Shown here in pieces: positions 4,214 through 30,933 of a DNA stretch of 55,780 nucleotides; position 1 is the stretch's first letter, and every line of letters begins with the position of its first letter. The notes beneath the pieces are model-generated. The model was not told where the DNA came from. It worked only from the letters and a program-made list of their open reading frames with translations, and did no database searches. A program made the translations under genes and the position numbers. Source of the stretch: Verrucomicrobiota bacterium (lineage in GTDB: Bacteria; Verrucomicrobiota; Kiritimatiellia; SS1-B-03-39; UBA6053); contig JAFIGC010000020.1 in the NCBI GenBank assembly GCA_020831635.1, positions 1-55,780 of the forward strand, given 5' to 3'.

Positions 4214-5230
4214 ATGGATGAATCTCCCCGAAATGATTTTGTGCGTGTCGATCAGGATTTCGAACTGAGCCTGCGCCCCACCCGTTTTGCCGATTACGTG
4301 GGGCAAAACAAGGTGCGGGAGCGTCTTGAGCTTTTCGTGGCCGCGGCCAAGGGCCGGGGGGATGTGCTGGATCACGTGCTGCTGTCGGGTCCGCCCGGGT
4401 TGGGCAAAACCACGTTGGCGCACATTCTCGGGGAACAGATGGAGGTGAATGTGAAAACCACCTCGGGTCCGGCGATTGACAAGGCGGGCGATCTGGCGGG
4501 TCTTCTGACGGGTTTGGAAAAAGGCGACATTCTCTTTATCGATGAAATTCACCGGATTCCGCGCGCGGTGGAGGAGTATCTGTATTCGGCCATGGAAGAT
4601 TTTGTCATCGATATTCTCATCGATCAGGGGCCCAACGCGCGGTCGGTGCGCTTGAATTTGCCGCGGTTTACGCTGGTGGGCGCCACGACGCGCATGGGGT
4701 TGTTGACGGCGCCGTTTCGTTCGCGCTTTGGCATGAGCAATCGCTTGGATTATTATTCCCACGAGGATTTGAAAAAGATCATCACCCGATCCGCGCGCAT
4801 ATTGAATGTGGACGTGGATGAGCCGGGGGCGTTGGAAATCGCGGCCCGCAGTCGCGGCACGCCGCGGATTGCCAACAATCTGTTGCGCTGGGTGCGGGAT
4901 TATGCCCAGGTCAAAGCCGACAATCGAATCAACAAGGACATCGCCGACCGCGCCCTGACCATGTTGGATATTGATCAATTTGGTTTGGATGAGATGGACA
5001 AGCGGTTGTTGGAAACGATTCTCCTGAAGTTTTCGGGCGGTCCGGTGGGGTTGGGGAGTCTCGCGGTGAGTGTCGGCGAGGAAGCGGGCACGATCGAGGA
5101 GGTGTACGAGCCGTATTTGATTCAGGAAGGGTACATGAAGCGCACCCCGCAGGGGCGCGTGGTCACGCCGCTATGTTACGAGCGTTTTGGGTTGAAGCCA
5201 CCTGCAAACGTGCAGCGCGAGTTGCTCTGA
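4214..5230 (+). CDS. ruvB: Holliday junction branch migration helicase RuvB
   Basis: RuvB is the hexameric AAA+ motor that drives branch migration of Holliday junctions with RuvA during recombinational repair. The 338-residue length is normal. The Walker A motif GPPGLGKTT is at residues 59-67 and the Walker B DEIH at 110-113. The family signatures LRP..F.DYVGQ, GATTR.G.L..PFR.RFG and [18 protein letters not shown] are all present, and the C-terminal winged helix ends with the R.V.TP.CYERFGL type sequence. It is monocistronic here, without ruvA or ruvC beside it. A purine-rich GGAGGGG lies about 20 bases upstream, rather far for a Shine-Dalgarno site. Confidence 0.98.
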
Positions 5231-14800: not shown

Positions 14801-16210
14801 ACCGAGGTCGGCGTCGTCTTTGTGGGTATTGAACAAGCGTACCGCACGTTCAAGTTCGCCTTCTTCGACGAGGCGGGCGACGGCTTGGAGGAGGGTGGAT
14901 TCGCGGGGTTCCAGTCCATGGCTCAGGGCGGCGTCTAGCACTTCGACGGCTTCAAGGGTTTGGCCCGCGGCCCAAAGACTCCATCCGTAATCCCGCTGGA
15001 AGTCGATGCGCTCGGGTTGCCAGGCGACAGCGCGTTCGAGGACTTGCCAGCGTTGCCCCGGAGGTGTTGCGTCGGCCCACTGGAGGAGCAGTTGTTCGTA
15101 TTCGGTTTTCAAAAAAGCCGGCAACTCTTCGTTCTCGAGCAGGGGTTGGATGTGCGCGGCGGCCTGTTCGTGGTTGCCACGGGCCTTTTCGTGCCTCATG
15201 CGGGCGACGGCGGAGACGGTGCGGCGGAGGGACTCGTCCGGCAGGCGGTTGAAGAAGGCTTCCGCGGTTTCGGGGTCCTCTAGATCCAGGATGACATGTC
15301 CTTTCAGGGACAAAGCTTCGAGATGTTCGGGAAATTCGTTGAGGAAGATGTCGATGGCATCCAAGGCCTCCGCGTTGCGGTCATCGGCGTACTGTGCGCG
15401 GGCAATCCAGAGCCGCCACTCGATGGGTGGCGGGGCATCGGTATCTTCGGGACTCCATGCGGCTTCGGCGTCGCGGAAGCGGCCCAAACGATACAGCGCC
15501 CAGCCGCGTTCTCTGCGGATGGAATGTTGGCCGGCCAGGATTGTTTCCGCCCGATCAAGGTCATCCAAGGCTTGGTTGAGGTGTCCGCGCCGGAGGGCAT
15601 CCATGGCGAGGGCATAAGCGAGGGTCGGATGAAAGGGGTGGGGTTCGTCCCTGGCGAGATGGGCTTCCGCCGGGGCGCGGTCACCTTGGGCGAGGGCGTC
15701 GAGGACTTTGTGAATGTCGGCGATATCGGCAGTGTCGGATGCGAGTTCCAATAGCAGGCGGGCATCTACGGCGCGGTCGCTTTCCCAGAGGCGGAGGGTG
15801 TGGGAGGCGAGAGGTTCACGACCGAGGTTTTCCCAGGTTTTGGGCGGAAGGGAGGCGAGTTTTTCGCGAAGGTCCGCGCCCCGTAGCGTTTCGATCCAAA
15901 GTTCCACCCGCCATCGGTCGATGTCGGGGTCTTCGGGGCGGAGCGCCAGGGCGGTGCGATAGGCCTCGAGGGCTTCATTGCCTTTGTAGGACAACTGTAG
16001 GGCGCGTCCGTATTGCTTCCAAGCGTCGAAGGAGCCTGGGTCGGCTTTGACGGCCTCGGCGGCGGTGGTGGTGGCGGCGGCGGGATCGCCATCGGCGAGG
16101 GCGGCACGGGAGGCTTGGAGGGCTTCGCGCAAGGGGTTTGCGGACTCCTGCGCAAAGATACAGGGGGCGGCGGCCAAGAAGCCGGCGAGGATGCAGGGGA
16201 GCCATTTCAT
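11843..16210 (-). CDS. TPR/beta-barrel outer-membrane exopolysaccharide exporter (PgaA-like) with an embedded deacetylase-like domain
   Basis: This 1455-residue protein starts with a signal peptide (1-20, ending CIFAQ). Residues 25-940 are a long chain of tetratricopeptide repeats. About 1185-1455 alternate aromatic and polar residues and end in YFIAVRLIP, as expected for a 16-strand outer-membrane barrel of the PgaA/BcsC/PelB type. Between them, around 945-1040, lies VPVLLFSHIS...SVGLLLDRLSEAGWTFL...VLLVFDQVPY. This is the NodB deacetylase pattern with FDQV in place of the metal-binding FDDG. PgaA guides and exports poly-N-acetylglucosamine across the outer membrane; this protein probably does the same for this locus's polymer. 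It is nearly twice PgaA's length. Its start overlaps the upstream gene (ATGA). Confidence 0.8.
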   Translation of the reverse strand: MKWLPCILAGFLAAAPCIFAQESANPLREALQASRAALADGDPAAATTTAAEAVKADPGSFDAWKQYGRALQLSYKGNEALEAYRTALALRPEDPDIDRWRVELWIETLRGADLREKLASLPPKTWENLGREPLASHTLRLWESDRAVDARLLLELASDTADIADIHKVLDALAQGDRAPAEAHLARDEPHPFHPTLAYALAMDALRRGHLNQALDDLDRAETILAGQHSIRRERGWALYRLGRFRDAEAAWSPEDTDAPPPIEWRLWIARAQYADDRNAEALDAIDIFLNEFPEHLEALSLKGHVILDLEDPETAEAFFNRLPDESLRRTVSAVARMRHEKARGNHEQAAAHIQPLLENEELPAFLKTEYEQLLLQWADATPPGQRWQVLERAVAWQPERIDFQRDYGWSLWAAGQTLEAVEVLDAALSHGLEPRESTLLQAVARLVEEGELERAVRLFNTHKDDADLGAFGRELIHKNRINASRAILELAWDQGDRHPLTGLYLGYALALAGQCEDLLPRLQPFLADLAEDTDPTQTDMLLEILHQCERYPELIALLQDAPLLQDPKQPHAAKVTDLMREHALFLLARHRHEDALPHLLRILERDPERPLWSRAIETAQRAQQPDTAAKLMSDAPLDLLPGWEIARVRGLRALEGEDPAAAAKAYEESLAQNPEQLDLLIRQFQLLLSLGEHVAATHWMEVLRVRVDTGTAPAADLAHMLDQLGRPAESNFYWELARAQSPEIPYYTLSAARSLAEACKTYEALALLLSHLDATPDPNLYAYAAELSLALGDTREAANHADAGLTMDAQHPALLRFRAELAEQLDEGDLAVDLARRALREQPASNALRLLLGRTLMKAERFEEARAHYESLLSEPSLEARALTRLRDLHALRGETAKALAHAQRLSDLHPDDPEITRLLAASLAEDRRFQPALRHLGSLTARPVSDAVPVLLFSHISRCPLPGTHSVESVGLLLDRLSEAGWTFLDPEALQTPPAVGSRQVLLVFDQVPYRVLPDLTQRLEAHQARAFLHRPPRFPSHFPVTERWEILEDLNEADPAFHLPGSSPDTLSAKRVPPAWTSEDLLRHLTQKNPLVQARLTKAKTLYWHNQAPRADHWFLEARALGADPFEVSFNRGMNALRAGDFALARVELDQAALLRPDHTAAAEHLASIDQKRNPALEGRYLRRVDSDHRNFTRRGLQASGYVSPNIQLFGAVEQLRHARRGMGEEEGWRTGIGVKTHVNELTEFDAILRYTQMDDAENFVGWDTRLRLPSQRMRGHLDLGLSRGDVETVEAVREGITQDHARAHAYSRVHNLWDVFLNADGLFRSDGNHTGQLEGRFIFRLNEAPYLGAGLLTRFADSEEDSDLYYTPRELQKHMLYLNLRGRASDLFRYSLSGEAGTAREAGDDWMFVWGARGELGWEFANNLEFVGGASYMETPRYDMRTYFIAVRLIP

Positions 16211-18087
16211 GGTTGAATCTCCGTGGCGCGTTGAAGGCGTTTGAGTTCGGGTGGCCAGTCTTGGCCGCGTTGGTTGGCTTCGACCATGCGTTGCCAGGGA
16301 GGTCCCTGGAGGGCGGCGGGGGGGAAGGCATCGGTTTCCGACGGTCGGAAGACGAGGTGGTCATTGCTTCCGAGCGTCGGAAGTGTGTCGTCGGGGTCGG
16401 CAAGCATGTAGAGTTTCAGACCGGCGTCGCGCGCGGTTTGGTGGAGGGGTTGGGCGTTGGCGGGCAGGGCGACGCGGGTGATGAGGGTTTCGAGGGCGGG
16501 GTGCTCTCTGCGGGCTTGGATGAGGCGGTCCAGGTCGGCGGAAGCGGATTCGGCTTCGAGGACGGGGATGGTGTGCAGGCCTTTGGCGGTGAGTTTTACC
16601 CAGTCGGTGAGGGCGGCGGACAGGGAGTCGGGGGGCAGTGGGAAGAAGACGCCCACGACGTGGTCGAGTTCGCGTTGGGTGAGGGCCGAGAGATTTTCGC
16701 CGCTGAGGTAGAGGGGTTCGAGGGGCGAGAATTTCCAGTTGGAGACCTCACAGGGTTCCTCGAGGGATGTGAGGAACAGTTGGCCGGAGGAGAGGACTTG
16801 TACGGGGGTGGGGGATAGGAGGGGCGCGCCGTCGGCATCAATGCGAAGACGGTTGTTTTTGAGGAGGATTTGGTGGTGGGGGGAGGGGTTGGGTAGGGGG
16901 ATGTCGGCGAGTCGGATCATGGGGCCGCGGTTTTTTTCGTGGACTTGAATCCGATGGGTTTCGAGGGTGATGCGGATATGGGCGGGGGGACTGTGGTAGC
17001 GTAGGTGAAGTTCCAGTTTCCCACCCCGGGGGACATGGGGGGTGAAGTCCCAGCGGAAATCCGGCCAGGGTTTGGCACCGTTGAGGGAGAGGGTGGCTTC
17101 GGGGGGGAGGATGAGTCGTCGGGTTTCGGGGTGGGTGATGCCCTGGCCGCGCCAATGGAGGGGGTGGGGGGCGTCCGGTCCTTTGGGCAAAAAGGTGGAA
17201 AAGGCTTCCATGTGATTGAGGAGGTCGTGTCCGGACCAGTCGCCGCGCACACGGAGGCGGGAAAGGCGTAGGGGGTTGGCGGAATGATGGTTGAAGGAGT
17301 CGCCTTCGTCGGTGAAGGCGAGCGTGTGCCAGCGGGTGAGTTCGGTGTGGAGCAGGGAAGCGGCGAGGACGTCGGCGCCGGCGGAGCCGCCGGTATCGGT
17401 GTAGGGAAAGAGATAGGCGAGGGGAATCCCGCCCGTCCAGTATTGCAGGTCCAAGGCGGCGCGGGAAAAATCCTTGTGGAGGCGTTGGCGATAGGCCTCA
17501 TCGGATTCGGGGGCGCCGTTGATCCAGGCGCGGTGACTGAGGAAGTTGCGCCGCGTGCCTTCGGAATCGACGGGAACCTGTTGGATGGCGTCGTGTCCCA
17601 TGGAAATCAGGTGCCAGAAGGGATCTTTGGATAGACTTCGGACTTCGTTGGATTTGAGGAAATGGTTGCCCCAGGTTTTGGTAACGGAAGTGGGGAGGGC
17701 CAGGTGGGCGATCAAGCCGGTTTCCCGGAGCAGGGGGGTGGCTCGGATGACGTTGTCCTTGCGTCCGCCCTCAAAGATCAGCAGGAGGGCTTTTTCGGGG
17801 AGGGGGTGTTTGTGGCGCAGGAATTGGAGGGCGTCCTGATCGGTCATGGTTTCCCACCCGGCGTCTTGGAGGGCATGGAGTTGCTCGGCCAGTCGTTCCC
17901 GGGAGACGTAACGGGGGTCGCCGGAGTCGTTGATGCCCTCGTAGGAGAGAACGTGGAAACCCTGCCAGTGTTGCCAGATTTCGGGTTCATGGCGGGGTTT
18001 GGGGGTGGGGCGAAAGAGGAGCCAGCCCAGTCCGGCGGCGGCGGCGAGAAGAACGAGCCATTGGAACGCGATGAAAAGTTTTTTCAT
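16207..18087 (-). CDS. PgaB-like polysaccharide deacetylase homologue with altered catalytic motif
   Basis: This 626-residue protein has an N-terminal membrane anchor (residues 5-22). Residues 40-330 follow the NodB/PgaB layout: GFHVLSYEGI, RERLAEQLHALQDAGWETM, then LLLIFEGGRKDN, then MGHDAI and LFPYTDTGG. In active enzymes the FEGG position is FDDG; here the catalytic acid is Glu and the metal-ligand Asp is Gly, so classical zinc deacetylation is doubtful. A beta-rich middle (about 340-445) and an alpha/beta C-terminus (445-600) follow, in the place of PgaB's glycosidase domain but not clearly related to it. It overlaps both neighbours by four bases, so it is co-translated with the synthase and exporter. 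The start at 18087 is supported by AAGGACGG upstream. Function: polymer modification or periplasmic handling, inferred from context. Confidence 0.7.
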   Translation of the reverse strand: MKKLFIAFQWLVLLAAAAGLGWLLFRPTPKPRHEPEIWQHWQGFHVLSYEGINDSGDPRYVSRERLAEQLHALQDAGWETMTDQDALQFLRHKHPLPEKALLLIFEGGRKDNVIRATPLLRETGLIAHLALPTSVTKTWGNHFLKSNEVRSLSKDPFWHLISMGHDAIQQVPVDSEGTRRNFLSHRAWINGAPESDEAYRQRLHKDFSRAALDLQYWTGGIPLAYLFPYTDTGGSAGADVLAASLLHTELTRWHTLAFTDEGDSFNHHSANPLRLSRLRVRGDWSGHDLLNHMEAFSTFLPKGPDAPHPLHWRGQGITHPETRRLILPPEATLSLNGAKPWPDFRWDFTPHVPRGGKLELHLRYHSPPAHIRITLETHRIQVHEKNRGPMIRLADIPLPNPSPHHQILLKNNRLRIDADGAPLLSPTPVQVLSSGQLFLTSLEEPCEVSNWKFSPLEPLYLSGENLSALTQRELDHVVGVFFPLPPDSLSAALTDWVKLTAKGLHTIPVLEAESASADLDRLIQARREHPALETLITRVALPANAQPLHQTARDAGLKLYMLADPDDTLPTLGSNDHLVFRPSETDAFPPAALQGPPWQRMVEANQRGQDWPPELKRLQRATEIQP

Positions 18088-19718
18088 ATCCGTCCTTTCC
18101 GGGTGCCCCAATCCGGTTTCCAGAAGGTGAGCACCGCGATGGGTAATTGCCAAATGAGGATGAGCAGATAGAAGAAGCAGAAATGGACGCCGTAGATCCA
18201 CAGGCGGGATTTGCGGGCGAAGAGATAGGTGGAACTCATGAGCATGCTCATGAGCAGGATGCCCAGCAGATAGACGAAGGGGGTGCCGAGTCTGAAGAGG
18301 GGTACGAAAATCATGGCACGGAACACCACGGCCGGGCCGAGAAGGGGCAGGAGGAAGCCAGTGTAAAAGGAGAGGGCCATGAAGGGCTGACGCCGCCACA
18401 TGAAGCCGCAGGCCCGAAGGGATTCGCGGAACCAAGAGCGTTTCCAGCGCAGTTGCTGGCGAAGGAATTGCCGGGTACTTTCCGGAACGATGGTGGTGCA
18501 GCGCGCGCGGCTGTCGTAGAGGACCCGATGGCCGTCCCGCAGCAGGGCGTTGGTGAGGGATCGGTCATCGCCAAAGGTGGCGGGGATGCCGAGGAACTTC
18601 TGATCGAGCCATTCGTCCAATCGCTCCTCCACCAAGCTGCGGCGATAGGCGGCGAAGGGGCCGGAAAGGCAGGTGACGCTGTCGAAAATGCTTTCCGCGG
18701 CTTTCATCACCCGGAAGCCGATGTAATATCGGACGGCCTGCATTTTGGTGATGAGGTTGACGTGGGAGTTTTCCACGTCGCAGTGGCCGGTTACCGCGGC
18801 GACGGTTGGGTCCGCAAAGGCCCGCACGATATGGGTCAGGGCGTCTCGCTCCAGAAAGCTGTCGGAGTCGATGAACACCAGCAAATCGGCCTTGGAGATG
18901 CGGACGCCGGCGGCGAGGGCCTGCCGTTTGCCTTGAGCGGTCTCGAAACGGATGGAGACCAATTCGGGATAGTCGGCTCTGGCGGCTTCGATGCGCTCCG
19001 GGGTCCGGTCGGTACTGCCGTCGTCGACAACCACCACTTGGAGCTTATCGGCGGGATAGCGGGTCTCCATGATCTCACGGATGGTGCGCTCGATGTTGGT
19101 TTCTTCGTTGTGAGCGGGAATGACCACGGTCATTGTGGGGGTGGCTTCGTTGGGTTTGGGGGCGCGGTAAAATCCGGCAAAGATGAATCGGCTGAGGAGG
19201 TAGGCGCCGACGCAAATGCTGTAAAGGAAGATGGGGACATCAAACCAGAAGTCGTAGAGGTTGTCGTACTTGCTGAGGAGGATGAGGCTGAACGCCACAA
19301 AAGCCAACAAAACGGCGGTGATTCGAAGTACGGCCCAGGTGCCGCGGGCGAGCCGTCGGCCCAGGGGTTCATCGAAAGCCACGCCCAATTCGCCGTGGGG
19401 ATCATCCCGATTTTGCACCGTGCCTTTGAGATGATAGGTGTGGTTGTCATAGCCCTCCGGCAGTACGTTTTCGGGCACGTGGAATTTCAGTCGGATGTTG
19501 TCCGTGCCATCCGGGAGGTGGATATGGGCCAAGTGGATGCCGCCTTCGGAGAGGTCGGAAGCCTTGCACAAGATTTCCTGCCGTTGTATTCCACGGCCCA
19601 CGATGAGCTTGACGGGGAAATCCACGGCATAGCGGAAGTGGGTTCTCCGATCGGGGGTGCCCGGTCGGGAGAGGGCTCGTTTTCTCCGGTCCGGGACCAT
19701 TTGATGCGATTTATGCAT
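18084..19718 (-). CDS. PilZ domain-glycosyltransferase family 2 fusion (exopolysaccharide synthase, PgaC/BcsA-like)
   Basis: This 544-residue inner-membrane synthase carries an N-terminal c-di-GMP receptor. The PilZ domain (about 20-125) has both binding motifs, RxxxR at residues 25-29 (RTHFR) and DxSxxG at 55-60 (DLSEGG). Two membrane helices follow, then a processive GT2 domain: VVVVDDGSTD, FIDSDSFL, GDDRSL and the polymer-binding QQLRW. The C-terminus has several more helices. The closest types are PgaC, NodC and hyaluronan synthases, which polymerise N-acetylglucosamine or related sugars while extruding the chain. Placing PilZ at the N-terminus differs from BcsA, where it is C-terminal. 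It heads the three-gene operon. The ATG at 19718 has an AGG 8 bases upstream; other in-frame starts exist at 19754 and 19700. Confidence 0.88.
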   Translation of the reverse strand: MHKSHQMVPDRRKRALSRPGTPDRRTHFRYAVDFPVKLIVGRGIQRQEILCKASDLSEGGIHLAHIHLPDGTDNIRLKFHVPENVLPEGYDNHTYHLKGTVQNRDDPHGELGVAFDEPLGRRLARGTWAVLRITAVLLAFVAFSLILLSKYDNLYDFWFDVPIFLYSICVGAYLLSRFIFAGFYRAPKPNEATPTMTVVIPAHNEETNIERTIREIMETRYPADKLQVVVVDDGSTDRTPERIEAARADYPELVSIRFETAQGKRQALAAGVRISKADLLVFIDSDSFLERDALTHIVRAFADPTVAAVTGHCDVENSHVNLITKMQAVRYYIGFRVMKAAESIFDSVTCLSGPFAAYRRSLVEERLDEWLDQKFLGIPATFGDDRSLTNALLRDGHRVLYDSRARCTTIVPESTRQFLRQQLRWKRSWFRESLRACGFMWRRQPFMALSFYTGFLLPLLGPAVVFRAMIFVPLFRLGTPFVYLLGILLMSMLMSSTYLFARKSRLWIYGVHFCFFYLLILIWQLPIAVLTFWKPDWGTRKGRI

Positions 19719-19841
19719 GGAAAACCTCGTGGTGGGAGAACCTGTCGGGAGCAACTGGGCCGATCAGGAATACCAAGAATGGAAACACCTGTTGATGAAA
19801 CGACCGTATGGAGGATAAACGTGACATTGAAATGCTCCATC

Positions 19842-19940: not shown

Positions 19941-20016
19941 GGAGGTGCAAGGAGGCGCGGGTCTGCGTTTGAATTGCGATTGAGTCATTACGGGCATTGC
20001 AATGGAGCAATGTGCT

Positions 20017-22680
20017 ATGAAAGAAAAAAACACTGCAACAGACCAAATGAAAGTGCCATTGAGGATTCTGATTCTTGATGATGAGAAAGATTTACGTCGG
20101 CTGATGCGGATTTGCTTGCAGAAGAGCGGGTGCGAGGTGGATACGGTTGCCAATGGGCGGGAGGGGTTGCAACGTTTGTTCAGCGTGCATTATGATGTGG
20201 TGGTCACTGACTATCGGATGGCGGAGATGGATGGATTGACGTTCATTCAGGAGGCCTTGATTCTTTGGCCTTGGTTGGGGGTGGTTCTGATCAGTTGTTT
20301 TTTGGGAGATGCCGAGTTGGAGCGGGCTGAACAACTGGGGGTGAAGCGAATTCTTGAAAAGCCGGTATCGAATCAGGCGCTTGTCAGGAATGTGCTGGAG
20401 GAAGGCGCGGCCAGTCGGGGACGAAACTCGGCCATGGGATCGGAGATGCCTCATTTGATCCATCACCAGGTGAATCTTCTCCGCCAGATGACGGAATCGG
20501 CATTACAGGGACAAAGTTTGCAGCATGGGATGGAGCAACTGGCAATCGGGCTCCAAGGGATGATTCATTGTGATCTTGTGGGGGTGTTGGGGATTGAGGA
20601 CCGGGGCGGGTCTTTATTGGTTCAAGCGGAGGGTGTGCAGCGGGAAGCGTCGGTCAAGTTGCTCCAGCGGGAAATGATCAATCGCTATCAGACCTTGTCA
20701 GGACGCTCCTTGTCGCATGGACAACTTGATATTCAAGTCAAAGGGGCGCTGAGTTCCGAAGCGGCCGCCTCCGATATTCAGCACGTTACCTCGGTGCCGG
20801 TGATCGGGAATGATCGGGTGTTGGGGATGCTCACCCTGGCGTTCACCCGCAGTATGGCGATTTCCCCGGAGGACAGACATTTCTTGTATCATGCGGCCAA
20901 TCACTTCTCCACGGTGTTGCAGGCGGTGGGCGAAATTCGAAAATTGGCGATTTATGATCCCTTGACGGGCGCCCACAATCGCCAGTTTCTGAACTCGGAA
21001 CTGGAACGGCTCTGGCTGCAGGCTTTGCGGTATGAACATGACATTGCGGTTATGGTGTTGGATGTGGATCACTTCAAGTCGATCAATGACAAACAAGGAC
21101 ATTTTGTTGGAGATGGAATTCTGGCGGAGTTCGCACGGGAACTCAGGGCTTTGATTCGCGCTTCGGATTTGTTGGTGCGCATGGGCGGGGATGAATTCGT
21201 CTTGATTTTGTTTCAAGCCCAAGCCGGGGAGGCGCAGGACCTCGCGCATCGCATTCTGTTGCATATGCGACACCACGCCTTCTGCCAGGGCTGCGAGAAA
21301 ACATACATTACGACCACGATCGGAATCGCGCTCAGTCGGCCCGGCGACAAAATTTTCACGCACACGCAATTGCTGGAAAACGCGGACCAAGCGTTGTACT
21401 GGGCCAAGCGGCGTGGTCGGGATCAGGTTGCGGTTTGGTCGCCTGCGGGGGAATTTGCCGATGCGGGGGATGGCAAGGAAGATTCCAAGGGGACGGTTTC
21501 AAGGGGGACTCAGCCCGCAAAGTCCTCCACGCGAGTGCTGTTGCTGCTTCAACAATCCCGGATTCGATCCATGGTACAGTCGACCTTGGAGCGTCAAGGC
21601 TATGAAGCGGAGGTAATTGAGACGGCGGGGGAGGCGCGGAAACTTTTGCAGACTCGTCCGGGGGCCTACGATTTGCTTTTCACGGAATTTTTCAGTGAAG
21701 GCGAGGGAGGCATCAACTGGTTGAAGGAGGCGGGACGTTTGGATCCATGCTTGGTCAAGATGGTCGTCAGCGAGGCCGTGACCGTGGAAAAGGCGATTGC
21801 CGCGTTTCGGGGAGGGGCCTATGATATTCTGAAATGGCCTTGTGAGGCGTCCCAGTGGGGGGCGCAACTGGCGCGGGCCATGGAACACCGTCGTTTGCTG
21901 AAAGAAAATCGTGGGTATCAGCAATATTTGGAGGCGATGTTGCGACAGAAAAGCAAAGAAGTGATCGAAAGCCTGGAGGAGGTGAAAGCTTCATATGAGT
22001 TTGCATTGGAAGCCATGGTGGGCATGCTGGATGCCCGGGAATACGAAACCAGTTTGCACAGTCAACGGGTGACGGCGTTGACAAAAATTCTGGCCGAGCA
22101 CATGGGGATCCCCGAACCGGAGATCTCTGAAATCGCCCGGGGGGCGCTGTTGCATGACATAGGAAAAATCGGCATTCCCGACAGTATATTGCTGAAGCCC
22201 GCTCCTCTTACGGACGCGGAATGGGAGGTGATGCGCACCCATCCGGAGGTGGGATATAAATTGTTGAAGGCAAATCCCTATTTAAAGACGGCGGCGGAGA
22301 TCGCGTACTGCCATCACGAAAATTTTGACGGAAAAGGATATCCCCGCGGGCTCAAGGGTGAGCAAATTCCGTTGGGTGCGAGAATCTTCAACTTGATCGA
22401 CAGCTACGACGCGATGCGTTCGCCTCGCATTTACAAACCCTCTGTCTCCAGGGAAAAGGCCTTGGGGGAAATTCGCAAGCAATCCGGGCGACAATTTGAC
22501 CCCGGAATTGCGTCCGCTTTTTTTCAGGTGGTGGATCGGCTTGAGAGAGAAGGACAATGGCCCAATCAGGAAAGCCGTTCTTTGTCGTGCAAGAAGCGTC
22601 CATGGCCGCCATTGCGTTCAGAAGAAAATCATCCGGGGATTCACCCGAGCTCCGGAAATGCCAATGGAGGGGGGAAATGA
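20017..22680 (+). CDS. c-di-GMP regulator 1: REC-(GAF)-GGDEF-degenerate REC-HD-GYP
   Basis: This cytosolic protein of 887 residues could both make and break c-di-GMP. An N-terminal receiver has its phospho-acceptor Asp65 in VVVTDYRM and a DD pair at the start. A GAF-like region follows (about 155-320). The GGDEF cyclase domain has an intact GGDEF near residue 390 and the inhibitory RxxD site (RASD) five residues before it. A second receiver (about 500-620) has Glu where Asp is expected (LLFTEFF), so it is probably not phosphorylated. The HD-GYP phosphodiesterase has LLHDIGK near 711 and HHENFDGKGYP near 770. GGDEF with EAL is common; GGDEF with HD-GYP is rare. The ATG at 20017 has GGAG 10 bases upstream. 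The stop overlaps the kinase gene (ATGA). Confidence 0.9.
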   Translation: MKEKNTATDQMKVPLRILILDDEKDLRRLMRICLQKSGCEVDTVANGREGLQRLFSVHYDVVVTDYRMAEMDGLTFIQEALILWPWLGVVLISCFLGDAELERAEQLGVKRILEKPVSNQALVRNVLEEGAASRGRNSAMGSEMPHLIHHQVNLLRQMTESALQGQSLQHGMEQLAIGLQGMIHCDLVGVLGIEDRGGSLLVQAEGVQREASVKLLQREMINRYQTLSGRSLSHGQLDIQVKGALSSEAAASDIQHVTSVPVIGNDRVLGMLTLAFTRSMAISPEDRHFLYHAANHFSTVLQAVGEIRKLAIYDPLTGAHNRQFLNSELERLWLQALRYEHDIAVMVLDVDHFKSINDKQGHFVGDGILAEFARELRALIRASDLLVRMGGDEFVLILFQAQAGEAQDLAHRILLHMRHHAFCQGCEKTYITTTIGIALSRPGDKIFTHTQLLENADQALYWAKRRGRDQVAVWSPAGEFADAGDGKEDSKGTVSRGTQPAKSSTRVLLLLQQSRIRSMVQSTLERQGYEAEVIETAGEARKLLQTRPGAYDLLFTEFFSEGEGGINWLKEAGRLDPCLVKMVVSEAVTVEKAIAAFRGGAYDILKWPCEASQWGAQLARAMEHRRLLKENRGYQQYLEAMLRQKSKEVIESLEEVKASYEFALEAMVGMLDAREYETSLHSQRVTALTKILAEHMGIPEPEISEIARGALLHDIGKIGIPDSILLKPAPLTDAEWEVMRTHPEVGYKLLKANPYLKTAAEIAYCHHENFDGKGYPRGLKGEQIPLGARIFNLIDSYDAMRSPRIYKPSVSREKALGEIRKQSGRQFDPGIASAFFQVVDRLEREGQWPNQESRSLSCKKRPWPPLRSEENHPGIHPSSGNANGGGK

Positions 22681-24272
22681 ACCCTATCGAGATCCGCGCT
22701 TTGAGTCGGAAACAGAAACGCATGAGCGAGGTATTACGAATCCAACAAGAGCGTTTCGAGCAATTGTCCGAGTTGAATCGCACTTATGTTTGGGAAGTGG
22801 ACGGGGAAGGGCGGTATACGTATGTGAGCAACACGGTGGAAGCGGTTTTGGGGTATCGGCCGCCCGATCTTGTGGGGAAATTTTTCTACGATTTTCATCC
22901 GCCGGATTTGCGGGAGGACTTGAAGGCCAAAGCCTTGGACCTGTTTGTGCGACAGGCGTGCTTCAGAGGTTTCGAAAATCCGGTGGTGGCCAAAAACGGC
23001 CAAATTTTATGGTTTTCCACCAATGGGCTGCCGATTGTGAATGACGAGGGGAAGTGCATGGCCTACCGGGGAATGGACATCGACATTACGGAGAAGCGGA
23101 ATATCGAGCGGGAATTGATCCTGGCCCAAAAAAATGCAGAGGCCGCTCACTATGCCAAGGCTTGCTTTCTGGCGAACATGGGGCATGAAATCTTAACGCC
23201 CTTGACCACGCTGCTTGGATTTTTGGCCCTGCTCAAGAACACCGAACTCACCGAGGAACAGGCATCATACGCCGAAACGGCAATGGATGGCGCGGACACA
23301 TTGCGTATTTTGCTCGAAGATCTTTTGGATTTTGCGAAAATCGAAGCACACAAGTTGGAGTTGGATTGCTTGGATTTCGATTTGCACGACTTGTTGGAAA
23401 GTTCTTCGGGACAATTGGCGCATTTTGCTTTGGAAAAGGGACTGGAACTGATTTACGAAGTGGATCCCGGCCTGCCGTCCCGTTTGCGCGGCGATCCCTT
23501 TCGCCTTGGACAAATCATCAGGAACCTCGTGACCAATGCCATCCAATACACGGAAGAAGGGGAAGTGATCGTGAAGTGCAAGGTGGTGGAGGAAACGGAA
23601 ACGGAAGTGACTTTGCGTTTTGATGTGGAGGATACCGGGATGGGGATACCCGGGGAGCAACTTCCGCATTTGTTTGACAAGTTCAGCCATTTGGAAAATC
23701 AAACCACAGGGTCGCAGGGGGGCGCGGGGTTGGGGCTCGCCCTATGCAAGCATCTTACCACCCTGATGAATGGGCGGATGGGGGTGGAAAGCGAACCGGG
23801 CACCGGCTCATTGTTCTGGTTCACCGTCCGTTTGACCAAGCAGGCAAAAATCACCCGCTCAAATCCAATCATTCCCGCGAACCTTCGAAACACCCGGGTG
23901 TTGGTGGTGGATGACAACCCGTCGCTATGCGAATTGCTGGTCAATCGTCTTTCTTCTTGGGGGATGCGCGCCACAAGCGCGAATGAATCCTCCACGGCCC
24001 TGCAACAGTTGGAGCAGGCGCTTGAAAACAAAGACCCCTTCGCCTTGACGCTGATTGATTTGGAAATGCCCGCGATGGGTGGACAGGCTTTGGGGCAAAG
24101 TATCCGCGCCGACAATCGCTTCGACGGGATGAGCCTTCTGTTGCTGGTTCCGTTGGGGACAAGACGCTTGCTCAGCGGACAACTGGATCGTCATTTTACC
24201 GGACACATCTTCAAGCCAATTCGAAATTCCGAACTCCTCACCCTCGTATCCAAAGCTCTCCCAACGCTATGA
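22677..24272 (+). CDS. PAS-histidine kinase with C-terminal receiver (hybrid sensor kinase)
   Basis: A soluble 531-residue kinase that probably feeds the receivers of the neighbouring c-di-GMP regulator. A PAS domain occupies roughly residues 25-150 ([16 protein letters not shown]...[10 protein letters not shown]). The HisKA helix contains His170 in [11 protein letters not shown]; the usual Ser and Arg beside the His are Gly and Leu. The ATPase domain has N box [11 protein letters not shown]1 DTGMGI and G2 GGAGLGLAL. The receiver at the end has Asp461 in [11 protein letters not shown]. No membrane helix is seen, so the signal is likely cytosolic. It starts at 22677, with GGAGGGGGG directly upstream and an ATGA overlap with the regulator; it overlaps the next gene the same way. 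The second copy of the cassette lacks this gene. Confidence 0.9.
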
Positions 24273-25861
24273 AATCCAACGATCCCCCATCCTCACGTCC
24301 AAGAAATCCGCTCATTCCCGCCGGGATGCGTCCCATACCTTGCTCCATGTTGTCAGAGTTTGAATTGGAGGAAATTGATCATGCGGAGCTTTGGTCCAAC
24401 GCCCGCTAGAAGGCGGTGGAAATCCTCGAGAACCGGTTCCCGCTTTCCGCCCGTTTTTACAAAGTGAGCGTTCAGGAGTTGGTCTGTATACCCTCACCGG
24501 TCATACGCCTCAAAAACATTCGGCCTCCCCGGGAAATGCTGGAGGCCTTGATCCGGTTTCAGGAGGAGGACGGACAGGTGCCCGATCTGGTGGAAATCGG
24601 TGAGGATGTCACCGGGCCAACGGATAAATCGGGAAGGCCAATGCTGGTTCGATTGGCCAAGAGGAGCCAGAGCGGGATGGATCAGGAGGCCGCGCTGATC
24701 ATTGCCGTGAGCAGCTATGTGCATCATTCCGGTGACGTTCAGTTTCTTTCCAAAAACATTCACGGCAATAAGGTGGCCAAACACCTCTATGATGCCATGG
24801 AATATCTTTGGCAGTCCCGTTTTTCCGAATCCAAGGGATTGCTACTGTCGGTGAAGGGCGAGGAAGCTGCGGAGGTGGTTGCGGGTATTGTTGAGCACGC
24901 ATGGGTGCTTTGCGCGATCGATGAGATGTTGGGCCTGCCGGGAATTTCCGGACTTGCGCAAAAAACATGGCGTTTGCGGCAACGTGGGCTTGCCGCCAAC
25001 ATCCACAATTTGCTTTGGAATGAAGTGCAAGGAAAATACCTGCCCGTTCCAACGGGGGATGAAACCAGGGAAGATGCTGAATTCGATCCCCGGGGCGCCG
25101 CCCTTGCCATCCGTGCGGGGTTGCTGAATTCGGACGAGAGCGGCAGGTCCCTTAGAGCCACTCAGATTCTTCTGGAGGAGCAGGGTCCCCGGGCGGGATG
25201 GGCGGCCTTGGCCGCGGCCATATATGAGAAAGCGGGATATCAGGTTCAAGCGATGGAGATGCTTCGTGGTTTGGCGGAGTGTCTGAGAGATGGTGACCTT
25301 GGGGGCGGGGAATCCTGCGAAAGCGCATGTTCACTTTTTTCATCTTCGGAACATCTCATCGCCGCCTATTTCCTAGAGGCGATGAAGAATCTGCACCCGA
25401 TGGTGCAGCATGCGCCTCCCCCGCAGCGAGAAGAGACCTCGCCGATGCTCTCGTTTGGGTATCCATCCATGAGAAAGTTCAGTTTCAGGAAAATTGAGTA
25501 TGAGGAGAAACGAGAAAACAAGCGCGCTCCGATTGAACTTCCCGTTGATATTCTGGTGAAAGGCCTGCGGCATCGCCAAAAGGCGACCGGGGTGATTCGA
25601 CACCCATCCACCTATGGGTTGGGGTTGATCACCACCGAGGCGATTGCCGAGGGCGCCACGCTGGAAATGACCGCGCATTGCGAGTTGCTGGGAAGTAAAA
25701 AGCCTTGCCGCCTGCGTGGTCGCGTATCCTGGACCCGATCAAAAGTGGGGACTCGACTGTATCAAAGCGGCGTGGAACTGGATGCGCGGAGCAAAGACCT
25801 GAAAAAATGGAAATCCTTTGTGTTGAAACATCTGCGCATGCAGGATGCCCTTCAAAGGTGA
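24269..25861 (+). CDS. PilZ protein with helical (six-hairpin-glycosidase-like) domain, copy 1, interrupted by an in-frame amber codon
   Basis: The frame begins with an ATG that overlaps the kinase stop (ATGA) and runs to 25861. Codon 47 (24407-24409) is TAG, after which the same frame continues without a shift. The intact paralogue at 29278 has serine there. The part after the stop (about 483 codons) could restart at GTG 24416, but no ribosome binding site is well placed. The N-terminal 330 residues are helical, with GQVPDL, a D-rich AALIIAVSSYVHHSGD and GWAALAAAIYEKAGY, resembling (alpha/alpha)6 glycosidases. A PilZ domain fills the last 115 residues, with RENKR (RxxxR) and HPSTYG where DxSxxG is expected. 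Likely a c-di-GMP effector acting on carbohydrate; whether it is still made is uncertain. Confidence 0.65.
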
Positions 25862-26262
25862 AAATCGCCGGAGGATTCCGGCTGATAGGTCAGGGCTTCA
25901 ATTCGAATTTTCCGAAATCCGTCGGGGACCCGCCACTCCAGTTCCTCCCCGGCTTTATAGCCCAACATGGCGGTGCCAATGGGGGAGAGGACGGACATTT
26001 TTCCTTGGGAAATATCCGCGTCGCCTGGAAAGACCAGGGTGATTTCCATTTCCGTGTCATCTTCCAAATCCCGGTATCGCACCCGCGAGTTCATGGTCAC
26101 GACTTCGGCTGGAATTTTTTCCGGGGGCAAGACCATGGCGCGCTGGAGTTCGTCCTCCAGGGCGCGGACTTTTTTTCGCTCCGCGGGGTCCATGTCGTCG
26201 AGAAAATCCTGCAACCGTTGCAGGTCGAAAGCGCTGATGTAAATTTTACGTTTGTTTGTCAT
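25852..26262 (-). CDS. rnk: Rnk-like regulator of nucleoside diphosphate kinase (GreA/GreB C-terminal family)
   Basis: A 136-residue protein made of a short N-terminal helical arm and a GreA/GreB-type C-terminal domain. The segments IYISAFDLQRLQDFLD, VVTMNSRVRYRDLEDDTEMEITLVFPGDAD and ISVLSPIGTAMLGYKAGEELEW-like strands fit Rnk, which binds RNA polymerase near the secondary channel and affects nucleotide-triphosphate balance. The start at 26262 has a consensus AAGGAG 7 bases upstream. It lies between the two c-di-GMP cassettes on the opposite strand, and its 3' end overlaps the PilZ gene by 10 bases tail to tail. Earlier in-frame starts add residues that do not fit the family. Confidence 0.88.
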   Translation of the reverse strand: MTNKRKIYISAFDLQRLQDFLDDMDPAERKKVRALEDELQRAMVLPPEKIPAEVVTMNSRVRYRDLEDDTEMEITLVFPGDADISQGKMSVLSPIGTAMLGYKAGEELEWRVPDGFRKIRIEALTYQPESSGDFHL

Positions 26263-26339
26263 GAGTGATCTCCTTTTGGCAAAAGGCATACCTTGCCACA
26301 TTCCAGGCGGAAGGCAAGACCTCATTGCGCAAGGTCATC

Positions 26340-26395
26340 TCAAGTTCAAAGATCGGGGCATGAATCTGACGGCGATGAAGTTTTTTCGCGGTGTT
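26340..26395 (-). pseudogene. Possible remnant of a second PgaA-like barrel gene (C-terminal strand)
   Basis: On the minus strand a short frame reads RKNFIAVRFMP, close to the last strand RTYFIAVRLIP of the large exporter ending at 11843. At DNA level 24 of 29 bases agree, including a 14-base identical block ACTTCATCGCCGTC. Upstream the frame is broken by a stop. It lies divergent to regulator 2, as the exopolysaccharide operon is to regulator 1. The remainder of the gap 26263-26480 shows no clear gene. Confidence 0.35.
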
Positions 26396-26479
26396 CATTT
26401 GCGTGTGCCAGAGGGTGTTCCTTCATTCGGTGAGCGTGTCGTCATGGGGGACCATGCCGAATCCCGTACGCCACACCCA

Positions 26480-26560
26480 TTTTATATGTTAATATGATCT
26501 AAATCTATATTTTGAAAATAATATAATTTAAGTAATAAATATATTACATTCTAATCTTGC
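26480..26560. promoter_or_regulatory. AT-rich block upstream of regulator 2
   Basis: About 80 bases almost free of G and C, in a genome that is otherwise GC-rich. It corresponds in position to the AT-rich block before regulator 1. A TATAAT follows at 26584-26589, 65 bases before the regulator's ATG, but no well-spaced -35 box is seen. Confidence 0.4.
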
Positions 26561-26653
26561 GTAAGAATGCTTTGATGTTAATGTATAATCGTGCGTGTAT
26601 GCTTGGCCTCTTTTTGGGTGTGTGAGCGTGGATGTAAACTGGAAAACCAAAAT

Positions 26654-29281
26654 ATGAATAAAACGAATTTCGAAATAGACCGAATAGATGAGCCATTGAG
26701 AGTTTTGATTCTTGATGACGAGGAGAATTTGCGCCGTTTGATGCGGATTTGTTTGCAGAAAAGCGGGTGTGAGGTGGATGCGGTGGTCAATGGGCGGGAA
26801 GGATTGCAGCGTTTGTTGCGCCAGCATTACGATGTGGTGGTGACGGATTATCGGATGGCTGAAATGGATGGGCTGACGTTTATTCAGGAGGCGTTAATCC
26901 TCTGGCCCTGGCTGGGGGTGGTGCTGATCAGTTGTTTTTTGGGGGAGAAAGAATTGGGTCGGGCGAAAGAATTGGGGGTGAGTCGAATCCTTGAGAAGCC
27001 GGTTTCGAACGAGGGTTTCGTACGAAACGTGCTGGAGGAGGGGGCGAGTAGCCGCAGGCGCAACGCCGACAATCGTTCCCAGACCCCCCAGTTGATCCAT
27101 CATCAGGTGAATATTCTCCGTCAGATTGCCGAATCGGCGTTGAAGGGGCGGAGTTTGCAACATGCCATGGAGCAATTGGCGATCGGGCTGCAGGGGATGG
27201 TTCATTGCGATCTTGTCGGGGTGTTGGGCTTGGAAGACAATGGAGGGTATTTGTTGGTGCAGGCGGAGGCGCCCCAGCGGCAGAATTCGGTGGCCCAGGT
27301 TCAGCACGAAATGGTGACACGCTACCAGGCCTTGACGGGTCGCCCCCTTTCACGGGAGCAACTCCAGACCCAAGTGAAGGGTGAGGTGACCTCCAACGAG
27401 GACATCTCTGAAATTCAACACATCACTTCGGTGCCGGTGATTGCGAATGATCGGGTGTTGGGGATGCTCACCCTCGCGTTCACCCATGCGGCGAAGGTTT
27501 CCGCGGTGGACACGCATTTTTTGTATCATGCCGCCAATCACTTTTCCACCGTGCTTCAAGCCGTGGGGGAAATTCGGAAATTGGCGATTCATGACCCGCT
27601 GACCGGTGCCTACAATCGGAGATATTTGGACGCGGAATTGGAACGGATTTGGCTGTTGGCCAGTCGGTATGAGCATATCGTTGCGGCGATCATCCTGGAT
27701 GTGGATGATTTCAAGTCCATCAATGACACGCACGGGCATTTGGCGGGGGACGGGATCCTCACGGAATTCGCCGGTGAGCTGCGCGCGATGACGCGGGCCT
27801 CGGATTTGCTGGTGCGATTGGGGGGGGATGAATTCGTGTTGATTCTTCCCCAAACCCAAGCGCATGAGCCGGAGGAACTCGCCCAGCGAATTCTCTCGCA
27901 TGTGCGCGAACATGTATTTTGCCAAGACAGTCAAAAAATTCAGATCACGACGACCATCGGGATCGCGTTGAGCCGCCCCGGCGGCAAAATATTCTCCCAC
28001 AAGGAGTTGTTGGACAATGCGGATCAGGCGCTATACTGGGCCAAACGGCGTGGGCGGAATCAGATTGCGTTGTGGTCGCCCGAGGGGGAATTCGCCGGCG
28101 CGTGGGGTGGAAAAGGAGGCGGCGAAGCGTTGACATCCGAGCGGTCCGAAGGTGCGTCGAGGCGGAAGCGGGTGTTGCTGTTAAATGAACAGCCTTGGAT
28201 CCGGTCGAATTTATTGCCCATTCTGGACGGGGAAGGATATCTGACCGAGGTGGCCGGGAGTGTCGGGGAGGCCCGGGAACTCTTGCGGGGCGGGCAGGGG
28301 ATGTTTCATCTGTTGTTGACGGAATTTTCTTTGAATGGGAAAGGAGGCGAGAATTTTCTGAAAGAGGCGAAGGAACTCGACCCCAGCTTGGTCCGGATGG
28401 TTGTCGGCGAACCCGTGACCGTGGAAAAGGCGGTGGCCTCGTTGCGGGAGGGTGCGTATGATATTGTGAGTTTGCCTTGTGAACCGTCCCAAGTGACCGC
28501 GCAATTGACGCGGGCAATGGAATACTGGCACCTGCTCAATGAGAATCGTGAGCATCAGTTGTATTTGGAGGCGATGGTCCGTGAAAAAAGCATGGAATTG
28601 ACCTTGAGCTTGGAAGAGGTCAAGGCTTCATATGAATTTGCCCTGGAAGCCATGGTGGGGATGCTGGATGCCCGGGAATACGAAACCTGTCGGCACAGTC
28701 AGCGGGTGATGGCCTTGACCAAAATATTGGCGGCGGAGATGGGGATTTCCGAGCCGGATTTATCGGAGATCGCCCGGGGGGCGCTTTTGCATGACATTGG
28801 AAAAATTGCCATTCCCGACAGCATTCTCTTGAAGCCGGGACCCCTTAGGGAAGACGAGTGGGAGGTCATGCGCACCCATCCGGAAGTGGGTTATAATTTA
28901 TTGAAATCGAACATGTATTTGAAGACGGCGGCGGAGATGGTGTATTGCCATCACGAATCCTACAATGGAAAAGGATATCCTCGCGGGCTGAAAGCGGAAC
29001 AAATTCCCTTGAGTGCCCGGATTTTCAGCGTGATTGACAGTTACGACGCGATGCGCTCGCCCCGCGTGTACAAAGCCTCCATTTCCAAGGAGGCGGCTTT
29101 GCGGGAAATCCTTGCCCAGTCCGGGCTACAGTTTGACCCCGTGGTGACGGAAGCATTTTTACAGGTCGTGGATCGGCTTGAGGTGGAGGGGCAATGGCCC
29201 GGAGAGGAATCCCGTATCTTCGCACCCGAAGAACTCCTCGTTCTTCCCATGTCACAGATCCGGAATCCTTTGGCCATATGA
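26654..29281 (+). CDS. c-di-GMP regulator 2: REC-(GAF)-GGDEF-degenerate REC-HD-GYP
   Basis: An 875-residue paralogue of the protein at 20017, alignable over its whole length and highly similar in most domains. The first receiver keeps VVVTDYRM with its Asp. The cyclase domain keeps GGDEF near residue 390 and RASD five residues before it. The second receiver again has Glu in place of the phospho-Asp (LLLTEFS). The HD-GYP domain keeps LLHDIGK near 711 and HHESYNGKGYP near 770. The proteins diverge only in the N-terminal tail, the linker after GGDEF and the last 25 residues. A predicted dual cyclase/phosphodiesterase, probably arisen by tandem duplication. The ATG at 26654 has only a weak GGAAAA site. 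Its stop overlaps the PilZ gene (ATGA), with no kinase in between. Confidence 0.9.
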   Translation: MNKTNFEIDRIDEPLRVLILDDEENLRRLMRICLQKSGCEVDAVVNGREGLQRLLRQHYDVVVTDYRMAEMDGLTFIQEALILWPWLGVVLISCFLGEKELGRAKELGVSRILEKPVSNEGFVRNVLEEGASSRRRNADNRSQTPQLIHHQVNILRQIAESALKGRSLQHAMEQLAIGLQGMVHCDLVGVLGLEDNGGYLLVQAEAPQRQNSVAQVQHEMVTRYQALTGRPLSREQLQTQVKGEVTSNEDISEIQHITSVPVIANDRVLGMLTLAFTHAAKVSAVDTHFLYHAANHFSTVLQAVGEIRKLAIHDPLTGAYNRRYLDAELERIWLLASRYEHIVAAIILDVDDFKSINDTHGHLAGDGILTEFAGELRAMTRASDLLVRLGGDEFVLILPQTQAHEPEELAQRILSHVREHVFCQDSQKIQITTTIGIALSRPGGKIFSHKELLDNADQALYWAKRRGRNQIALWSPEGEFAGAWGGKGGGEALTSERSEGASRRKRVLLLNEQPWIRSNLLPILDGEGYLTEVAGSVGEARELLRGGQGMFHLLLTEFSLNGKGGENFLKEAKELDPSLVRMVVGEPVTVEKAVASLREGAYDIVSLPCEPSQVTAQLTRAMEYWHLLNENREHQLYLEAMVREKSMELTLSLEEVKASYEFALEAMVGMLDAREYETCRHSQRVMALTKILAAEMGISEPDLSEIARGALLHDIGKIAIPDSILLKPGPLREDEWEVMRTHPEVGYNLLKSNMYLKTAAEMVYCHHESYNGKGYPRGLKAEQIPLSARIFSVIDSYDAMRSPRVYKASISKEAALREILAQSGLQFDPVVTEAFLQVVDRLEVEGQWPGEESRIFAPEELLVLPMSQIRNPLAI

Positions 29282-30933
29282 GTGCATATCCGACAAGTCC
29301 CCCGATCTCCGCCGGGATGCGCTCCGTGCGGCCCACGACGCTGACCAAGCTTGAATTGGATGAACTCCATCGTTCGGAACCTTGGGCCGCCGCCAGTTCA
29401 AAGGCCGAAAAAATCCTGGAAAATCGTTTCTCGCTGTACACCCGTTGCCACAAGGTCACCATACAGGAACTGAGCCTCATTCCATCTTCGGTCATCCGCT
29501 TGAGAAAAACCCTTTCCCTGCGGGGGTTGTTGGAGGATTTTATCAGGTTTCAAGAAGAGGAGGGCCAGGTGCCCGATGTGGTTGAAAAAGGAATGGATTC
29601 GAACGGGCCGCGGGATATAACCGGGAGTCCAACCATGATTCGGTCGGCCCGCAGGATACGGGGCGGGGTGGATCAGGAGGCTTCCTTGGTCATTGCCGTT
29701 TCCAATTACGTGCATCATTCCGGGGATCTTCGGTTTCTTTCCGAAAGCATTCACGGGAAAAATGTGTCCAAACATCTTTCCGACGCCATGGAGTATGTAT
29801 GGACGACCCACCAATCGGGAGCCAAAGGGCTCAAAGGACTTCTCCTGCCCGGGAGGGGTGGGGCGGAAGCCGGGGGCATTGCGGGGATTCGGGAAACCGC
29901 ATGGTTTTTATGTGCGATCCATGAAATGTTGGGCCTCCCCGTGGAACCCGGATTCCCGCAAGGGATTTGGCGCCAGCGGCAGGCTGAACTTGCCGCCATC
30001 CTCCACAAATCGCTTTTGGGTGAAGTGAAAGGGAATCCCCTTTCCCAAACGGTGGGGGCGGGGTGTTTGGAAACGAATGGCGGGATGGCGTTTGATCCGC
30101 TGGGGACGGCACTTGCCATCCGGGCGGGGGTACTGAACCCTGAAGAGACCGAACGGTCGCTTCGCGCAACCCTGGCTTTGTTGGAGGGGAATGGCGGGTC
30201 GGTCGGATGGAGCGCCCAGGTCGCCGCCATTTATGCAAAAGCGGGTTATCAGGTTCACGCCATGGAAATGCTTCGTACACTTGCGGCGTGCCCGTGGGAT
30301 GGTGAAGGGGGAGAGAATGCGCCCCTTGACGGCCCCTACTCCCCATATGCGCCCCCGCTCCATGTGATCGCCGCATGTTTTTTGCAGGGGATGAAAAATT
30401 TGCACCCGATGGTGATGGTTCGGCACGCGACGCCTCCCCCCCGGGAGGTTCCCCCGCCACTGCCATTGTCCCCGAAACCGTCACCTGTCCAGTCCCCGGG
30501 CCCGACTTCCGCCCCGGCACCGCCCGCGGCCACATTTGGCCATCCCAACCCCAGGAAATTCAGCTTCAAGAAAATTGAATTCCAAGAAAAGCGTGAAAAC
30601 AAGCGCGCGCCGATTCAACTTCCCGTTGATGTGGAAGTGAAGGGTTTTCGGCAACGTCTAAAGGCTTCCGGGTCGATTTGGCATCCGTCCAGTTGTGGGC
30701 TGAGGTTGATTCTGACCGAGTCGATTTCAGAGGGTGCCACGCTGGAAATGATCGCGCATTCCGAGGCGCTTGGGGATCCGAAACCTTGCCGATTGCGGGG
30801 ACGGGTCGCGTGGTCCCGGTCAAAAGTGGGGACCCGTCTTTATCATTGCGGGGTGGAATTGGATGCGAGAAGCAAGGATTTGAAAAAGTGGAATACCTTT
30901 GTTACAAATCACCTGCTGATGCAGGAAAAGTAG
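29278..30933 (+). CDS. PilZ protein with helical (six-hairpin-glycosidase-like) domain, copy 2
   Basis: Intact 551-residue paralogue of the amber-interrupted gene at 24269. Residues 40-350 contain repeated helix pairs and motifs that recall (alpha/alpha)6-barrel glycosidases: GQVPDVV, DQEASLVIAVSNYVHHSGDLRFL, DPLGTALAIRAGVL and SAQVAAIYAKAGY. No catalytic acid pair could be assigned. A proline-rich linker (about 385-425) leads to a PilZ domain (435-551) with RENKR near 438 and HPSSCG in place of DxSxxG. No signal peptide or membrane helix is seen, so it should be cytosolic. The start is the ATG that overlaps the regulator stop. I infer a c-di-GMP-responsive carbohydrate-binding or -processing protein tied to the exopolysaccharide locus; the missing Asp makes c-di-GMP binding uncertain. 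Confidence 0.7.
   Translation: MSAYPTSPPISAGMRSVRPTTLTKLELDELHRSEPWAAASSKAEKILENRFSLYTRCHKVTIQELSLIPSSVIRLRKTLSLRGLLEDFIRFQEEEGQVPDVVEKGMDSNGPRDITGSPTMIRSARRIRGGVDQEASLVIAVSNYVHHSGDLRFLSESIHGKNVSKHLSDAMEYVWTTHQSGAKGLKGLLLPGRGGAEAGGIAGIRETAWFLCAIHEMLGLPVEPGFPQGIWRQRQAELAAILHKSLLGEVKGNPLSQTVGAGCLETNGGMAFDPLGTALAIRAGVLNPEETERSLRATLALLEGNGGSVGWSAQVAAIYAKAGYQVHAMEMLRTLAACPWDGEGGENAPLDGPYSPYAPPLHVIAACFLQGMKNLHPMVMVRHATPPPREVPPPLPLSPKPSPVQSPGPTSAPAPPAATFGHPNPRKFSFKKIEFQEKRENKRAPIQLPVDVEVKGFRQRLKASGSIWHPSSCGLRLILTESISEGATLEMIAHSEALGDPKPCRLRGRVAWSRSKVGTRLYHCGVELDARSKDLKKWNTFVTNHLLMQEK

Follow-up and report, generated by a model that had tools for sequence, protein, structure and literature searches.

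Known PilZ effectors include fusions of the domain to synthases, pumps and regulators. In Streptomyces, the active GH13 enzyme GlgX binds c-di-GMP and is not known to have a PilZ domain. Control by c-di-GMP through direct binding has been described for this glycogen-debranching enzyme (PMC9530166). BcsE is a cytosolic c-di-GMP-binding accessory protein of cellulose secretion that stands beside a PilZ-bearing synthase (PMC7439463, PMC8461298).

In a window of 55,780 nucleotides (the whole stretch of Verrucomicrobiota DNA that was analysed), we find two copies of a gene that fuses a PilZ domain to a domain which, judging by homology, descends from (alpha/alpha)6 glycosidases. No published description of such a combination of a pseudo-glycosidase with PilZ was found in the open-licence literature, in keeping with the first-pass annotation of this DNA, which did not recognise it. 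Like GlgX (PMC9530166), the fusion would be a glycosidase-type protein tied to c-di-GMP, a tie that we propose here; it differs from GlgX in having an apparently dead enzyme part and an attached PilZ domain. The resemblance to BcsE is one of way of working only and claims no domain in common.

Two fusion genes and the descent of their N-domain

Copy 2 (29278-30933, forward strand) is an open ATG frame of 551 aa, in which the glycosidase-derived N-domain (29410-30408, residues 45-377) is connected by a linker (30409-30564, residues 378-429) to the PilZ domain (30586-30870; Pfam PF07238), all on the forward strand. Copy 1 (24269-25861, forward strand; PilZ domain at 25505-25783) is 57% identical to copy 2 over 506 residues; its first 46 codons are followed by an in-frame TAG (24407-24409), beyond which the frame is intact and a GTG comes a few codons on; the product therefore probably starts at GTG 24416 and comprises 481 aa. 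The TAG may be a real nonsense codon, reflect a late start or be an assembly error. Against a curated Pfam cut-off of 22.5 bits, the PilZ domain in copy 1, read from 24416 to 25861, scores 24.0 bits (E 4.9e-5), and that of copy 2 (residues 437-530) scores 20.2 bits (E 7.7e-4) in a whole-protein search, just below the cut-off, and 24.0 bits in the genome scan, above it. The profile search thus bears out the PilZ domain that had been read from the letters of copy 2, at the edge of the threshold. The cytosolic location proposed at the same time also fits, as no transmembrane stretch was found (Kyte-Doolittle means over 19 residues peak at 1.22) and inspection by eye showed no sign of a signal peptide. 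The proline-rich linker that had been described is present in copy 2 (at about residues 385-415) and absent from copy 1; because the linker is much shorter both in copy 1 and in a relative at another locus, L053, the proline-rich stretch does not belong to the conserved architecture.

The origin of the N-domain can be traced through unfused proteins of the same genome and genus. A tblastn search with copy 2 detected a 473-aa protein (C126), to which it aligns at 32% identity across 274 residues (E 1.6e-20), and another unfused match on C94 (E 2.1e-8). Profile-profile comparison (hhalign) aligned the window-type N-domains with the unfused proteins at E 2e-33 over 331 columns, and even the four divergent N-domains found in a genome of another genus (G004) matched the unfused set at E 4e-25. 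Two unfused proteins exceed the Pfam cut-off of MGH1-like_GH (PF22422; 39.1 and 40.8 bits) and two that of the GH94 catalytic domain (PF17167; 27.9 and 29.3 bits), the cut-off being 27 bits for each model; remote matches to GH94 and GH100 proteins of solved structure point the same way. Among the latter, the GH100 alkaline/neutral invertase of Anabaena (PDB 5goo) aligns with the C-terminal part of the unfused relatives, including NGGxW and the Glu of FPEYYD; this match is remote (E about 1e-3), and the motifs concerned are missing from the window copies. The fusion proteins themselves stay below the cut-offs of both Pfam glycosidase models (the best, copy 1 against MGH1-like, reaches 14.7 bits against 27), and no fusion matched an NCBIfam model except for a weak TIGR02266 match in one G004 copy. 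Because the N-domain is homologous to unfused proteins that pass the glycosidase cut-offs, we place its descent, on sequence grounds, among the (alpha/alpha)6 glycosidases. The first-pass annotation had called it a glycosidase-like helical domain, which this homology upholds; neither a match of the N-terminal fold to a non-carbohydrate family nor a want of profile support for PilZ came to light.

Structure prediction and fold search, which the first-pass annotation had recommended, bear on this point neither way. Two AlphaFold2 predictions, made from three sequences only, returned mean pLDDT values of 37.6 and 43.2, and Foldseek with the second of these low-confidence models gave nothing significant (best E 0.35). 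That the domain is merely glycosidase-like and adopts some other helical fold, for instance an epimerase- or cyclase-type toroid, might draw on this lack of confidence and on a non-significant match of the model to a sugar 2-epimerase. We consider it highly improbable, since it would have to account for homology to proteins above the cut-offs of two glycosidase families, and since the two best non-significant Foldseek matches and several more are toroid glycosidases (GH125-type and GH48 included), which is no more than suggestive.

Loss of active-site motifs in a domain under purifying selection

In 8/8 unfused relatives, six of them aligned and two read from other families, four motifs are preserved: WIRD (with its RD), TIDW (D-W; TADW in one of the two), NGGDW and FxEW. 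In remote alignments the Asp of TIDW falls on the Asp of ADWND in chitobiose phosphorylase, and the Glu of FxEW on the Glu of FPEYYD in the Anabaena invertase; we take these to be the catalytic acid and base, respectively, so that the TIDW Asp and the FxEW Glu would correspond to them. In the two window copies and the L053 relative, WIRD is replaced by TIQE, SVQE or DIHE and the TIDW, NGGDW and FxEW segments are deleted, whereas a DQE segment and a GTALAIRAG segment are kept. The window fusions thus share their ancestry with the MGH1-like and GH94 families and differ from them in lacking the catalytic acid, the base and the substrate loops. The four G004 fusions retain the motif segments in length with most of them substituted, so that most motifs are lost in every fusion; one of these four, L021, still has Asp and Glu at both catalytic positions and may represent an earlier stage of decay. 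Two of the divergent G004 genes, L018 and L021, lie side by side (locus L064, 8441-11703, reverse strand).

Judging from these substitutions and deletions, the N-domain is almost certainly a degenerate, non-catalytic glycosidase, a state on which the first-pass annotation, right as to descent, had been silent. A still active glycosidase or phosphorylase that c-di-GMP turns on or off via PilZ, along the lines of the c-di-GMP-controlled glycogen-debranching enzyme (PMC9530166), could appeal to the clear descent from intact enzymes, to the DQE and GTALAIRAG segments kept in the window copies and to the occupied D and E positions of L021. In the window copies, however, RD is replaced and the segments with the catalytic acid, the FxEW base and the NGGDW loop are deleted; this makes an active enzyme very unlikely, and we rejected that reading on account of the deleted catalytic segments.

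The degenerate domain has nonetheless been preserved. In the N-domain dN is 0.31-0.37 against a dS of 1.1-1.35, about 0.3 of dS, and in the PilZ domain dN is 0.15-0.23, about 0.1-0.3 of dS; both ratios are rough, as dS is near saturation. The pseudo-glycosidase domain is under purifying selection. These values also bear on whether the fusion genes are decaying leftovers with no present function, as the in-frame TAG of copy 1 and the lost active-site motifs might suggest. Seven copies with long open frames, the intact 481-aa frame that follows the TAG and the low dN relative to dS all argue against such decay, and a pseudogene reading, rejected on dN/dS and copy number, is left with hardly any probability.

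The PilZ motif and the signalling neighbourhood

As in canonical PilZ domains (PF07238), the fusions combine a profile match with an RxxxR motif and SxxG, and the low-confidence prediction shows a beta pattern followed by a C-terminal helix. RxxxR reads RENKR in both window copies (30592-30606 in copy 2, residues 439-443), and an alignment of 15 PilZ domains shows no variation at its arginines or at Ser and Gly of the second motif. The fusions differ from the canonical family in the second motif, (D/N)xSxxG, where the window copies and the L053 relative read HPSxxG (HPSSCG at 30682-30699 in copy 2, residues 469-474), with Ser and Gly kept and the Asp/Asn position occupied by His, and the G004 fusions read FPSxxG. 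Six PilZ proteins that stand alone share the xPSxxG pattern, as K/Q-P-S-x-x-G; five belong to the same family, the sixth to a different family of the class. A protein from a third family has DVSxxG and the PilZ-bearing synthase of the window has DLSxxG. Because stand-alone relatives have xPSxxG too, the pattern is an inherited trait of a PilZ subfamily, not fresh decay at the fusion, and loss of the motif caused by the fusion was rejected as an explanation. The HPS..G reading in both copies that the first-pass annotation had reported is therefore accurate and the motif change real; the possibly altered ligand use that it had derived from this does not follow, since an inherited motif is by itself no sign of changed ligand use at the fusion.

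The motif may nonetheless matter for what the fusions do. PilZ-like proteins with incomplete motifs are known, and one of them, XCC6012, shows no reliable c-di-GMP binding (PMC3131395). By analogy, and with the Asp of DxSxxG changed to H (window) or F (G004) in 7/7 fusions, it is possible, and a tentative reading that we take seriously, that the PilZ domain no longer binds c-di-GMP and serves for protein interaction only, the fusion bridging two proteins as a structural adaptor that itself receives no second-messenger input. Against this stand the invariant RxxxR and the invariant Ser and Gly of the second motif, and the coupling of both window copies to genes of c-di-GMP or kinase modules.

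This coupling is visible in the gene order. Directly upstream of copy 2 lies a gene for a REC-GAF-GGDEF-REC-HD-GYP protein (26591-29281, forward strand) with GGDEF and HD/GYP motifs present, whose stop codon overlaps the ATG of copy 2 as ATGA (29278-29281). The ATG of copy 1 overlaps, likewise as ATGA, the stop of a gene for a PAS-HisKA-HATPase-REC hybrid histidine kinase (22557-24272, forward strand), whose start is uncertain, its ORF overlapping the gene before it; that gene, at the head of the copy 1 operon, encodes a second REC-GAF-GGDEF-REC-HD-GYP protein (20002-22680, forward strand). By its coordinates, the L053 fusion gene also has an ATGA overlap with a kinase gene. Such overlaps suggest translational coupling of the fusions to the upstream genes. 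Within 20002-30933 the REC-GAF-GGDEF-REC-HD-GYP gene and the fusion gene are each present twice and the kinase gene once, and the doubled GGDEF/HD-GYP and fusion units look like a tandem duplication. Between the two units lies an Rnk/GreA-like gene on the reverse strand (25852-26325).

On the other strand, divergently oriented, the fusions adjoin an operon that would make a PNAG-type exopolysaccharide. Its synthase gene (18084-19754, reverse strand) encodes a NodC/PgaC-like PilZ-GT2 polysaccharide synthase whose N-terminal PilZ has canonical RTHFR and DLSEGG motifs and which we regard as a candidate partner of the fusions; it matches PgaC (2.8e-42) and NodC (7.5e-58), in both cases below the NCBIfam cut-offs. 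A PgaB-like protein (16207-18435, reverse strand; NCBIfam PgaB E 1e-14, below the cut-off) and a TPR-rich 1455-aa protein (11843-16210, reverse strand), assigned as PgaA-like by its position and TPR layout only, complete the set. By eye, the PgaB-like protein reads FEGG at the segment where we assume active deacetylases to read FDDG, which makes its deacetylase activity doubtful. According to a review, none of the proteins encoded by the classical pgaABCD operon is known to have a motif for c-di-GMP binding (PMC8461298). Relatives of the PilZ-GT2 protein over its full length, at 53-57% identity, are present in four or more further families of the class; other PgaC-like proteins in this bacterial family align only from about residue 132 onwards, without the PilZ part. 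An in-frame TGA that had been counted in many PilZ-GT2 homologues was dropped as a candidate feature: six were checked, and only one alignment contained a stop, at its C-terminal end.

Distribution and proposed role

Seven fusions were found in three genomes of one family, two in the window, one in the same genus (G002, on contig PXAS01000209.1) and four in the other genus (G004), and searches of 346 genomes from the class and 388 from the phylum yielded no others. A single-sequence scan of GTDB contigs gave no match, and an alignment-based scan gave one locus, L053. The N-domain tree places all fusions on one side of a branch with support of 78/85, favouring one origin, and the PilZ tree leaves open whether the fusion arose once or several times; we infer that the fusion is a lineage-restricted invention, probably with one origin. 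The T3Sed10 label of the same-genus relative points to soda-lake sediment (PMC6146748, PMC13274419). Downstream of the L053 fusion gene (about 4844-5000) lies a short tandem repeat that translates as repeated MRFCNWDSCSYGY.

We hold with about even confidence that the fusions act in the cytosol as non-catalytic effectors within a local module of c-di-GMP signalling. Their origin would lie in one family, where a stand-alone PilZ domain became joined to an intracellular (alpha/alpha)6 glycosidase of the MGH1/GH94/GH100-like type; catalytic acid, base and substrate loops would then have disappeared from the enzyme part, with selection maintaining its scaffold. The coupled GGDEF/HD-GYP protein or kinase module would set the local c-di-GMP signal, to which the fusion PilZ, with RxxxR intact, would probably still respond, perhaps weakly, and the state of the PilZ domain would alter carbohydrate or partner-protein binding by the dead glycosidase domain. 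The likely output in this genome would be the neighbouring PNAG-type exopolysaccharide synthase. A more specific version, in which the dead domain senses sugar or nascent polysaccharide and, with a c-di-GMP-binding PilZ, both signals gate exopolysaccharide synthesis, strikes us as rather unlikely.

Weighing against an effector role are the replaced Asp of DxSxxG, through which c-di-GMP binding could be weakened or abolished, and structure predictions that fall short of useful confidence. The proposed exopolysaccharide link has its own difficulty in G004, where a PgaC-like synthase was not found despite four fusions and c-di-GMP genes are not evident beside the fusion genes, so that the link is not general. 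No close PgaC-like match was found in G002 either, a genome with one fusion and only about 88% complete; the target of the fusions may therefore differ between genera.

One bacterial family contains intact enzymes alongside fusions in partial and in full decay, which makes the route of decay traceable. If the effector role is true, PilZ with a dead glycosidase would be a new type of output of c-di-GMP signalling, and the fusion would show clearly how an enzyme can be co-opted as a scaffold for signalling.
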